NCBI RefSeq assembly: GCF_000375365.1
Contig: NZ_AQXB01000009.1
Coordinates: 1-64,000, forward strand
From: Corynebacterium mastitidis DSM 44356
GTDB taxonomy: Bacteria > Actinomycetota > Actinomycetes > Mycobacteriales > Mycobacteriaceae
DNA: 64,000 nucleotides
Reading direction: 5' to 3'
Shown: in pieces, positions 727-17,727 of the stretch
Layout of the letters: every line of letters starts with the position of its first letter
How positions within the stretch are numbered: position 1 is the stretch's first letter
Position numbers and translations under genes: made by a program
Notes under the pieces: generated by a model
Told to the model about the DNA's origin: nothing
Databases searched by the model: none
What the model saw: the letters and a program-made list of their open reading frames with translations, nothing else

Positions 727-799
727 GCGCCATTAGCTCAATTGGTAGAGCAACTGACTCTTAATCAGTGGGTTCGGGGTTCGAGTCCCTGATGGCGCA
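727..799 (+). tRNA. tRNA-Lys (anticodon CTT), prophage integration target
   Basis: A complete cloverleaf can be drawn: acceptor GCGCCAT (727-733) pairs with ATGGCGC (792-798), discriminator A799, anticodon stem ACTGA/TCAGT with loop CTCTTAA and anticodon CTT at 760-762. The terminal CCA is not encoded; CCG follows. The prophage is integrated in the 3' half: from 766 on the sequence is identical to the copy at 17655. The gene stays intact because the attachment core restores its 3' end. Confidence 0.96.
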
Positions 800-1070
800 C
801 CGCTTCACCCCCACCGGGATTACCCCCGGTGGGGGTTTCGCCGTTTTCAAGCCACCTTTGGTCTACGCCAGTGGCGAGCGCAATCAATTTCAAGCTAGAC
901 CGCCGGGGGGTGGTCTTGCCCTGCTCAATCTGAGCCAATCCACTCCGGGCCATTCCAGTCTCATCCGCCAACCCCTGCTGCGTAAGACCCGCATACTCAC
1001 GCGCCTTACGCACGCGATCCGCGAGATCAAACTGAGGGATAACTCCAGCAAGATGAAGTGATGTAGTCAT
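765..1070 (-). CDS. Phage immunity repressor (XRE-type HTH), 3' end formed by attL
   Basis: 101 residues. Residues about 20-75 form a Cro/CI-type helix-turn-helix (LTQQGLADETGMARSGLAQI, then EQGKTTP). The start ATG at 1070 is preferred over upstream starts because TATTAT lies seven bases before it, which fits a leaderless transcript. The last quarter is encoded inside the attL core, antisense to tRNA-Lys, and ends RTH. The stop TGA at 767-765 uses host base T765. In the excised phage the frame would continue into 17654-17633 and add CLELIAA. This resembles the repressors of integration-dependent immunity phages such as mycobacteriophage BPs. HTH family is clear; the repressor role is inferred from position and the divergent promoter. 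Confidence 0.85.
   Translation of the reverse strand: MTTSLHLAGVIPQFDLADRVRKAREYAGLTQQGLADETGMARSGLAQIEQGKTTPRRSSLKLIALATGVDQRWLENGETPTGGNPGGGEAVRHQGLEPRTH
766..838 (+). other. attL core
   Basis: 73 bases identical to 17655-17727. The core begins in the 3' strand of the tRNA anticodon stem, covers the T arm and acceptor, and continues through the downstream terminator hairpin. The first mismatches outside the core are T765 against G17654 on the left and C839 against T17728 on the right. The T765/G17654 difference decides whether the repressor frame stops here. Confidence 0.95.
808..838 (+). terminator. Intrinsic terminator of tRNA-Lys, inside attL
   Basis: An 11-bp perfect stem, CCCCCACCGGG with CCCGGTGGGGG, loop ATTACC, followed by TTT. 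It lies within the attachment core, so an identical copy exists at attR. On the minus strand the hairpin is inside the repressor reading frame but has no U tract there. Confidence 0.8.
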
Positions 1071-1077
1071 GCGACCA

Positions 1078-1107
1078 ATAATAGCCATGACCTGCACGAG
1101 TATTCAA
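1078..1107 (-). promoter_or_regulatory. Predicted repressor promoter
   Basis: On the minus strand, TTGAAT (1107-1102), an 18-base spacer, and TATTAT (1083-1078). The start codon ATG is at 1070, seven bases after the -10 box, so the transcript is probably leaderless. The -35 box overlaps the left arm of the inverted repeat CAAATGAC/GTCATTTG. Confidence 0.65.
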
Positions 1108-1145
1108 ATGACCACACATAAGATAGTCATTTGTCCACTTATGGC

Positions 1146-1182: not shown

Positions 1183-1365
1183 ATGACCACTACTGAACTG
1201 ATCGGCTCGGCGGAGGCCGGACGCCTCCTCGGCCTCAGCCGAAACGGGGTAAACCGGCGCGTCGAAAACGGCACCCTCACCCCCGCCGGGCGGATCGGTC
1301 GCCGTGGCATACACGTCTTTGATCGCGCTGAGATTGAGCGCCTAGCCGAGAGTGAGGCCAAATGA
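1183..1365 (+). CDS. Small MerR/excisionase-type DNA-binding protein
   Basis: 60 residues. The sequence AEAGRLLGLSRNGVNRRVEN followed by GTLTPAGRIGRRGIHVFDRA is the AlpA/MerR-like HTH fold seen in excisionases and small phage regulators. It is the first gene of the rightward transcript, divergent from the repressor, and its ATG coincides with the predicted transcription start. By position it may be the Cro-like regulator, the excisionase, or both. Its stop overlaps the next start (ATGA at 1362). Confidence 0.75.
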   Translation: MTTTELIGSAEAGRLLGLSRNGVNRRVENGTLTPAGRIGRRGIHVFDRAEIERLAESEAK

Positions 1366-15521: not shown

Positions 15522-16777
15522 CCGGATATACCAAGAACCACCGTATTCCCTACCCGACCTCGGGTGATCCGATCCACCGTGGGGCCGCTCAGATGCAGGC
15601 GATGGCTGAGCGTATCGACGTCCTTGATCTGGGCGGGGCTGGCCAGACTGGCCCTGCCGGTCCGCAGGGTGCTAAGGGCGCGACCGGCTCCCGGGGCGCG
15701 ACCGGCCCGGCAGGCCAGCGCGGTGCGACCGGGCCCGCAGGCCCCCAAGGCCCACAGGGCGACCCTGCCTCGACATTCACGCTCGATAAAGAGGTGATTG
15801 ACGTCACGGATACCGCTACTATCGCGTACGTCGGCACTGTCAAAGAGAGAATTGTTCTTACTCGAATTGGGCCAATGGTGCAGTTGTCCATTGGGAAAAT
15901 ATCAATTCCCAGGGATCAGCAGTTTGTCGCTACAATGCTAAGAAATGTGGTACCGGCAAATCTTCGCCCTAGACAAAGCGCTTCCGGTGTACTTAAAGGA
16001 GTGGCCAACTCGCGGTATTGTCATGCGATAGTGGATACTAATGGGGGACTCCGGTTAAGTGACGCTAATCGGAATACCGAGTACGAGGGCGCGCTGACGT
16101 GGGTTGTGGACGTCCCTGTGGCGGCTCCGACCGGCCCGGCAGGTCCGCGCGGCGCGACTGGCGCAACCGGCCCCGCAGGCCCCAAGGGCGATACGGGAGC
16201 GACCGGCCCGCGCGGTGACACCGGCTCGCAAGGCCCGCGCGGCTCGACGGGGGCCACGGGGCCTCGCGGACCAGAAGGCCGCCAAGGGCCGCCCGGCCCG
16301 CGCGGCCCGGCCATAGAGTTACCCGAGTGGAGCCAGACCGGGATCAACTTGATAGCGGACGGCAACCGCAACTTGAACCTCGGCCGAGGTGGTCGATTCC
16401 GCTTCCAGTGGCGCGTTCTATGGGGCATTTTTGAGCTGCACTACCGAGTGCTGTGGGGCCGCGACGCGATCACCCCTGGCGGGCCGCTGCGTATGCGCTT
16501 GCCAGTCACGCCTGCCGAGGGATTCGAGGGCATGGGGTCCGGCTCCTACTACCTCAATCAGGGCGAACTGTGGTCTATGGACTGCAAGCCGCACGTCAAG
16601 CCCGGCACGAATGAGGTGCGGTTCCTGGTACCCGTCAACGGCGATAAGAGCACGCTGAAGTACATGCGGGTCCACGACGGATCCTCACGCTTTGGAACCG
16701 GCATACCCGCGAATCCCGACTTCCGCATAGACCAGGAATGGTCCAGCCTCCAAGGAAGCATTAGCTTTCCGGTCTAG
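15518..16777 (+). CDS. Collagen-like tail fibre, probable receptor-binding protein
   Basis: 419 residues. The N-terminus [20 protein letters not shown] should attach to the tail. Two collagen-like Gly-X-Y blocks follow (residues about 44-82 and 206-264), separated by a beta-rich domain of about 120 residues, and a C-terminal domain of 155 residues ends the protein. Collagen blocks give trimeric rods in phage fibres. The C-terminal domain likely binds the cell surface. Its stop is convergent with the integrase stop, sharing four bases. Confidence 0.8.
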
Positions 16778-17601
16778 GAGGCGATACGCCACGCCGCCGT
16801 GGCTGCCGCGTAGGAACTCTGCCCGCTCACAGCAGCGTAGACCTGGGTCGTGGAGACCGTGGCGTGCCCAAGGAGCATCTGCACCGCACGCAGGTCGTGC
16901 GAGTCGCTGTAGGCCACCGTAGCGTAGCGATGCCTGAGCTTGTGTGGCGTGTACCCCGTCGGCAGGTACCGGGAGATGCGCTTGCCCAGATACCCCGGAG
17001 AGATGTGCCCGTCCTGCCCGCCGGGGAATACCCACCCGCCGCGCGCTGCGATCTTGCGCGCCAGGTGCGGCGGGCAGGGTACCAGTCGCTCGTGCCCGCC
17101 TTTCCCCACTACCCGCAGGCACCACCCCTGCCCCACCGGCTCGACGTCACAGGCGCGCACCTGAGCACACTCTGTACGCCGCAGCCCGCAGGTTGCCATG
17201 ATCTCGATGGCGAGCTGGATGTGCGGCGGCGCTGACCTAATGGCCTCCATGATGTAGACGTCCGGCACCGGCTTAGGCACCGCACGCGGGAGCTGTACCG
17301 GCGGCAGTTCCTCCGTGACGTCCTCGGACACGTAGCCCTCGGTGTACATCCAGCGCCAGAACAGGCGCAGCGACTCGCGCGCCGAACGCCGCCCCTGCGG
17401 TCCCCAGGATTGCTCGGCCAACCACTTGACTACATCCCGCCGCCTGATCTGACGTACCGGTTTACCCACTGCTTCTATGCAGCGTCGCGCATGGGACAAG
17501 CGAAGCGAAATGGTCCCCTTCGCTCGCCCCGCCGCTTCTAGTTCCGCGCGCCACCCCCGGAGGATTTCTTGGTTCTCAACCATGAGCCCAATGTTACCCA
17601 T
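16774..17601 (-). CDS. int: Tyrosine site-specific integrase
   Basis: 275 residues. Catalytic residues are all present: R141 in GLRRTE, K167 in GKGGHER, H220 and R223 in TPHKLRH, H246 in [10 protein letters not shown] and Tyr255 in QVYA. The N-terminal 100 residues form a SAM-like core-binding domain; there is no separate arm-binding domain visible, so it is short for the family. The start at 17601 has no clear ribosome binding site, and ATG 17583 is an alternative. The gene lies 53 bases inside attR. In the excised phage it would follow the repressor by about 30 bases on the same strand. The C-terminus is WRIAS. Confidence 0.93.
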
Positions 17602-17654
17602 GTTACTGATGTGACTAATGATTTCTTGCAGCTCACGCAGCGATTAGCTCCAAG

Positions 17655-17727
17655 CAGTGGGTTCGGGGTTCGAGTCCCTGATGGCGCACCGCTTCACCCC
17701 CACCGGGATTACCCCCGGTGGGGGTTT
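17655..17727 (+). other. attR core
   Basis: Identical to 766-838. To its left, 17641-17654 still looks like a scrambled tRNA (GATTAGCTCCAAG), which is phage DNA. To its right host sequence resumes with the tail of the terminator. Confidence 0.95.

Follow-up and report, generated by a model that had tools for sequence, protein, structure and literature searches.

The prophage at the left end of this DNA places its repressor gene across the tRNA-Lys gene into which it has integrated. The question raised by this locus is whether integration itself decides which form of the repressor is made. A sequence-only reading had proposed that the excised phage appends a degradation tag to its repressor, and that the prophage form escapes degradation by losing it. 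Here, we examine this proposal across the window, i.e. the whole 64,000-nucleotide stretch of Corynebacterium mastitidis DNA that was analysed, and among relatives of its repressor and integrase.

Results

Attachment sites and two forms of the repressor

The prophage measures 16.9 kb and is bounded by a 76-nt direct repeat (763-838 versus 17652-17727, 99% identity, start-to-start distance 16,889). The left repeat copy consists of the 3' half of the tRNA-Lys gene and a hairpin behind it (Table 1). Base-by-base comparison of the attL and attR copies revealed a single mismatch, T at 765 versus G at 17654. The frames between the repeats match terminase, portal, major head, major tail, neck and tape measure families, and in addition minor tail, tail fibre, endolysin and HNH families. 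Both repressor and integrase were found at 100% identity on one IMG/VR contig, which probably represents the same genome as the window.

In the prophage, the repressor frame runs from ATG 1070 to TGA 767-765 and encodes 101 aa with the C-terminus EPRTH. Its start is uncertain, as the frame is open up to GTG 1097, nine codons upstream of this ATG. The attP of this phage was obtained by computational rejoining of the phage sides of attL and attR, and here the same frame continues from EPRTH into Cys-Leu-Glu-Leu-Ile-Ala-Ala before it ends at TGA 17635-17633, which gives a viral form of 108 aa. The tail, the stop and both lengths had been read correctly to the base. As in BPs-type systems, the repressor reading frame contains the attP core, a host tRNA gene overlaps attB, and at attL a host tRNA-Lys base (T765) converts the phage Cys codon TGC into a TGA stop. 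According to passages of PMC9934374 and PMC9262239, such a stop conversion is a feature of BPs-type systems; in BPs itself, the third base of a Cys codon is changed to yield the stop (passage of PMC9262239). In the free phage, repressor and tyrosine integrase are adjacent and co-directional, another BPs-type feature, with 31 bp between the viral repressor stop and the integrase ATG (17601) downstream.

Table 1. Features at the two ends of the prophage (window coordinates).
Feature	Position	Strand	Basis
Host tRNA-Lys (CTT) gene, attachment site, intact at attL	727..801	+	ARAGORN
attL common core	763..838 (identical run 766-838)		base-by-base comparison
Prophage repressor stop TGA, created by host base T765	765..767	-	frame reading, att comparison
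Repressor gene, prophage form, HTH protein, 101 aa + stop	765..1070	-	HTH_3/HTH_31 (Pfam), phrog_2328
12-bp hairpin in repressor frame, candidate tRNA-Lys terminator in the lysogen	807..836	+ (tRNA strand)	fold analysis
Candidate operator, perfect 8-nt inverted repeat CAAATGAC/GTCATTTG	1105..1133	no strand	sequence only
Divergent small HTH protein, in the place of the Cro/RDF-like gene of BPs relatives	1183..1365	+	HTH_17, phrog_66
Tyrosine integrase, 275 aa, C-terminus RIAS	16774..17601	-	PF00589, phrog_1
Viral repressor tail CLELIAA + stop, phage side of attR	17633..17656	-	rejoined frame
attR common core	17652..17727		repeat comparison

The repressor matched phrog_2328 (transcriptional repressor) at E 1.8e-26, and the divergent product matched phrog_66 (excisionase and transcriptional regulator) at E 4.3e-5. 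Three 15-nt direct repeats, at 1101, 1124 and 1176, lie between these two genes and are candidate operators; beside the repeats (1101-1190), one promoter-like site for the repressor was found where 0.3 were expected. A structure model of the repressor comprised five helices (residues 16-76) and had low confidence at 1-10 and 89-101. With pLDDT <50 for residues 89-101, the viral tail sits at the end of a low-confidence stretch that follows the five-helix domain. The host genome encodes ClpX, and its tmRNA tag, AENTQRDYALAA, ends in YALAA. We also considered whether the phage arm past the core might be a degenerate copy of the tRNA 5' half, and dropped this as too weak (score 18, reached or exceeded in 0.0496 of 5000 shuffles).

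Relatives in Corynebacterium and beyond

Using tblastn, the integrase matched 483 phage records, the best at 45.8% identity (Gordonia phage SallySpecial), and the repressor matched 305 at E <= 0.01, many of them annotated as immunity repressor. Phages of Gordonia and Mycobacterium contain annotated pairs of immunity repressor and integrase that the two proteins matched, and all best places for both among phage records were below 60% identity. Among 242 Corynebacterium genomes, 24 held repressor matches (E <= 1e-5) and 22 held integrase matches (E <= 1e-30), which could be paired into nine prophages from eight genomes. ARAGORN placed a tRNA-Lys gene next to the repressor in all nine (8 CTT, 1 TTT) and also in G188 and G189. 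C. freiburgense carries two distinct prophages of this kind (G055:C1; L027/L076 and L047/L055), one at tRNA-Lys CTT and one at TTT.

Other matches within the genus looked different. Five repressor-like genes were located on G108:C1 (L028, L046, L049) with no paired integrase at E <= 1e-30; three of them were read, each ending without a tRNA core. In G146, G017, G139 and G058 (L017, L018, L023, L058 and others), the matches are confined to the repressor portion overlapping hairpin and tRNA (query from residue 62 or 76 onwards) and may represent tRNA ends followed by terminators, or else att scars.

In an order-wide search, 18 of 397 genomes contained the integrase at E <= 1e-50. A repressor search in 29 genomes led to two co-located candidates that were examined, G271 and G184. 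The former, outside the genus, has a 36-nt core common to both ends at tRNA-Lys and a viral tail PRTA, and it supports the switch; the latter was rejected, having neither a tRNA nor a shared core. An integrase-alignment scan of genome contigs gave at least 80 loci, the best among the matches listed being a Sinomonas contig at 40% identity. These loci, among the matches listed mostly distant integrases from other phyla, were not used as named relatives.

A conserved ending of the viral repressor

For comparison of the endings, 27 viral forms were compiled from the nine Corynebacterium prophages, six IMG/VR contigs and 12 named phages, the latter hand-picked from the upper part of long match lists. 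Duplicate IMG/VR copies were dropped (L185 = GRU3, L192 = GMA5, L195 = L194, L007 = window, L182 = G227), and Angel was represented by Liefie. The set excludes IMG/VR contigs trimmed at the repressor stop (prophage form only), G188 and G189 (repressor found without a paired integrase), the weak matches L008-L010 and three of the five G108 genes (coreless; the remaining two were unread). Also outside it are the remaining repressor matches from the 242 genomes below E 1e-13 and the majority of the 162-305 phage records.

All 27 viral forms end in A or AS (22 and 5, respectively). In the comparison sets this ending was rarer: it occurred in 6 of 53 tails when the other two frames were read, and in 19 of 98 additional annotated CDS of these phages. 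With Ala alone counted, 22/27 viral forms compare with 5/53 other-frame tails (Fisher P 1.5e-10, an overstated value, since the set consists of related forms, some of them hand-picked). Among the nine Corynebacterium prophages, the rejoined repressor is always longer than the prophage form. Their viral forms end in LELIAA, LELVAA, LRSVPA, LNALPA, LRPVA, MAIPA, LLLVA, AIAS and GVRAA, that is, in AA (3/9), PA (3/9), VA (2/9) or AS (1/9), whereas the last residue of the prophage forms is H, R, D or N, with no ending in A or AS (0/9). Trimmed IMG/VR contigs, including copies of the same prophages, likewise had such an ending in 0 of 15 cases.

The sequence-only reading had named the lack of a conserved -AA ending in related phages as one finding that would speak against it. 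C-terminal Ala or Ala-Ser was kept in 27 of 27 forms and later a TA ending was found in G271, so the proposal withstood this comparison, although -AA itself occurs in only three of the nine Corynebacterium forms. It had also suggested a search of Corynebacterium prophages in tRNA-Lys for frames that cross attP and end in AA: nine paired prophages were obtained, of which eight end in Ala and one in Ala-Ser. In contrast, the seven-residue tail, presented as much shorter than in BPs and its relatives, is not special. Five of the nine Corynebacterium tails have seven residues (the others 6, 11, 12 and 28), and we rejected the view that this length is unusually short.

Two frames through the tRNA are in use (GLEPRT and DSNPEPTD), and the ending is kept in both; different frames through the tRNA have been described before for M. 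abscessus prophages (passage of PMC9934374). The first attL/attR mismatch past the core falls within the host-supplied stop codon in seven of nine prophages. In six of these it is the third base of TGA and in G131 the second base of TAA, while G227 departs two bases and G055b 20 bases earlier. In G147, attP has six more bases matching the tRNA after the single stop-codon change.

Integration into tRNA genes with overlapping reading frames is common to many elements. The tail could accordingly be chance sequence beyond the att core, with the 108-aa form having no special fate and its shortening being irrelevant to the lysis-lysogeny decision. Yet the ending stays constant while tail sequence, length and frame diverge, and its frequency far exceeds that in other frames (6/53) and other CDS (19/98). 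We rejected the chance tail and consider it highly improbable.

The nature of the tag is a separate matter. An ssrA-like tag on the viral repressor, with two C-terminal Ala or similar, is a feature of BPs-type systems, and CLELIAA agrees with it by sequence. Nevertheless, -IAA differs from -LAA, and relatives show PA, VA and AS. Pro-Ala (3/9) and Ala-Ser (1/9) among the Corynebacterium tails are unlike the classic ssrA Leu-Ala-Ala, so that the long form might be unstable through a protease other than ClpXP (e.g. of ClpC or Lon type), or the tail might mainly block repressor function. Relatives of BPs gp33 end in Lys-Ala-Ser, however, and are described as degraded via an ssrA-like tag; Angel gp33, a BPs sibling, has 136 aa with Cys104 just past the core and the end DKAS. 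In addition, the 136-aa and 103-aa forms of BPs are alike in DNA binding, and A135E stabilises the 136-aa form (both in passages of PMC4557955). Overall, we regard a different protease or a block of function as a possible but clearly less favoured explanation than ClpXP-type removal.

The integrases of the nine Corynebacterium prophages end in A or AS in five cases and otherwise in four, with RIAS in the window, and all six Gordonia integrases that were read end in A. A proteolysis signal at the C-terminus of the integrase as well is a further trait of BPs-type systems. Such a tag may exist on the integrase here too, which is less certain than for the repressor.

Free circular forms

Two Corynebacterium records filed as plasmids, NZ_CP047356.1 (L168) and NZ_CP063192.1 (L169), are free circular phages that are also present in the same chromosome. 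In the C. freiburgense record ('plasmid phiCFREI45254', circular, 13,965 bp), the repressor has the long form and ends in RIRRVLHGVRAA (GVRAA), and the chromosomal copy ends in KVRSSTN. An integrase frame is present in phiCFREI45254 though the gene table lists none. Joining the ends of the C. heidelbergense record ('phiDSM104638', 16,908 bp) gave LRPVA, as predicted from the chromosomal copy.

The phage of the window was not seen in free form in searches of phage records and IMG/VR, which would fit a relic whose switch no longer works. Its terminase, portal, head, tail, tape-measure and endolysin frames are nevertheless long and match phage families, its att sites are present, its repressor and integrase frames are open, and two related Corynebacterium phages do occur as free circles. 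A relic is therefore unlikely in our judgement.

A hairpin within the repressor codons

The hairpin lies 8-9 nt past the tRNA end (attR copy 17696-17725) and is made of the repressor codons that separate the HTH part from the tRNA part. In the 66 nt adjoining the core, stems of at least 10 pairs were found in 33 of 39 repressor genes versus 11 of 104 other 66-nt windows from the same genes. Folding was better than that of synonymous recodings (z < -1.5) in 32 of 39 versus 15 of 104 windows. The stem persists despite widely differing protein sequence (EricDab, Cracklewink, Barebow, G188). Shorter stems (<10) occur in Angel, Taheera, L187, L190, L193 and L194, and in L189 the stem is remote from the tRNA end. 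In the 8 nt past the hairpin, T is more frequent in the tRNA direction than in the other (mean 3.15 vs 2.03, Wilcoxon P 0.0005); the Gly-Lys/Glu-Thr-Pro codons dictate part of this run.

By the same criterion, stems with 10 or more pairs are present on the host side of attR in seven of nine prophages. In G000, G131 and G055b this stem is identical or nearly identical to the phage hairpin, and four are clearly separate. At L056 (G131), the near copy of the phage hairpin is followed by further repressor-like bases; it is perhaps the scar of another element.

We infer that the phage perhaps supplies a replacement terminator for a tRNA gene split from its own. The 3' end of the repressor gene might then hold three messages at once, namely a flexible linker that in the free phage gains a very short degron (its end having drifted to AA, PA, VA or AS) and, on the opposite strand, the 3' half of the host tRNA with an intrinsic terminator of phage origin behind it. 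Integration would move the host tRNA terminator to attR, and the tRNA would adopt the one in the repressor codons. In this way, one crossover could turn the repressor on and keep the tRNA ended, or keep tRNA transcription out of the repressor. On this joint reading, crossover role included, we are evenly divided. The text of PMC9262239 and PMC5559632 makes no mention of a terminator, stem-loop or hairpin, and that of PMC4557955 uses 'hairpin' once, for a DNA loop; Broussard et al. 2013 lay outside the scope of this comparison.

Discussion

The att sites, both frames, the stop conversion, gene order, homology and the conserved ending are all visible in the DNA and support the integration-dependent logic that had been proposed by analogy with BPs. 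Judged from these features, the prophage very probably carries a BPs-type integration-dependent immunity switch. In the free phage, an AAA+ protease of the host, most probably ClpXP, would remove the 108-aa repressor with its ssrA-like CLELIAA, and the lytic genes would run. The integrase would carry out recombination between attP and the 3' half of tRNA-Lys in the host, after which a single host base would turn TGC into TGA at attL and the tag would stay behind at attR. The resulting 101-aa repressor should be stable and confer immunity. Degradation, the identity of the protease, repressor activity and continued excision of the prophage are the presumed parts of this scheme.

The sequence-only reading knew of no such case at tRNA-Lys in Corynebacterium. 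Literature searches on the genus, as far as the retrieved texts extend, gave no report of an integration-dependent system in a Corynebacterium prophage, but the site itself has been reported for Gordonia cluster CW (passage of PMC5559632). The switch type and the tRNA-Lys site are already known from Gordonia; the genus, the tail series, the free forms among plasmids and the hairpin are, as far as the texts compared extend, new. For some cluster P mycobacteriophages, a group in which integration-dependent systems predominate, a passage of PMC9635641 predicts that Corynebacterium could serve as host. Our findings extend the BPs-type switch to Corynebacterium and show that two plasmid-filed records are free forms of such phages. 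From the natural series of tails at one site, a degron rule for the genus could be derived for testing in C. glutamicum. Should the hairpin act as a terminator, this would explain how the phage uses a tRNA gene without leaving the tRNA unended, via a device inside a protein gene.

Homologues of both repressor and integrase occur in cluster G mycobacteriophages and in small Gordonia phages. As described in passages of PMC4557955 and PMC9262239, BPs and cluster G (Angel, Liefie, Taheera) share with the window's prophage an attP inside the repressor gene with the integrase next downstream, a host tRNA base that makes the stop at the third position of a Cys codon, and a C-terminal degradation signal on the viral form, which is predicted here. 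Passages of PMC9262239 also name the lack of arm-type integrase sites as a feature of BPs-type attP. The differences lie in the tail (33 residues in BPs, with relatives ending in -AS, versus seven residues and -IAA here), in the integrase (396-398 aa versus 275 aa) and in the host gene (tRNA-Arg versus tRNA-Lys; for cluster G, passages of PMC9262239). Moreover, Angel and Taheera lack the strong hairpin found here.

Small Gordonia phages (Coeur, SallySpecial, Rahul, Emperor, EricDab, GMA5, GRU3, Jeanie) have genomes of 15.9-17.7 kb, similar to the window's prophage, and their repressors also end in -AA. Their integrases are at most 46% identical to the window's. GMA5, GRU3, Jeanie and McGonagall use tRNA-Lys with this kind of system (passage of PMC5559632). 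Unlike the window's phage they belong to another host genus, with repressor/integrase identity below 60% in every matched record; the comparison with Gordonia cluster CW covers repressor, integrase and size. The free circles phiCFREI45254 and phiDSM104638 share genus, gene order, tRNA-Lys and a viral repressor ending in A with the window's phage, but they were deposited as plasmids and their repressors are about 38% and 55% identical to that of the window.
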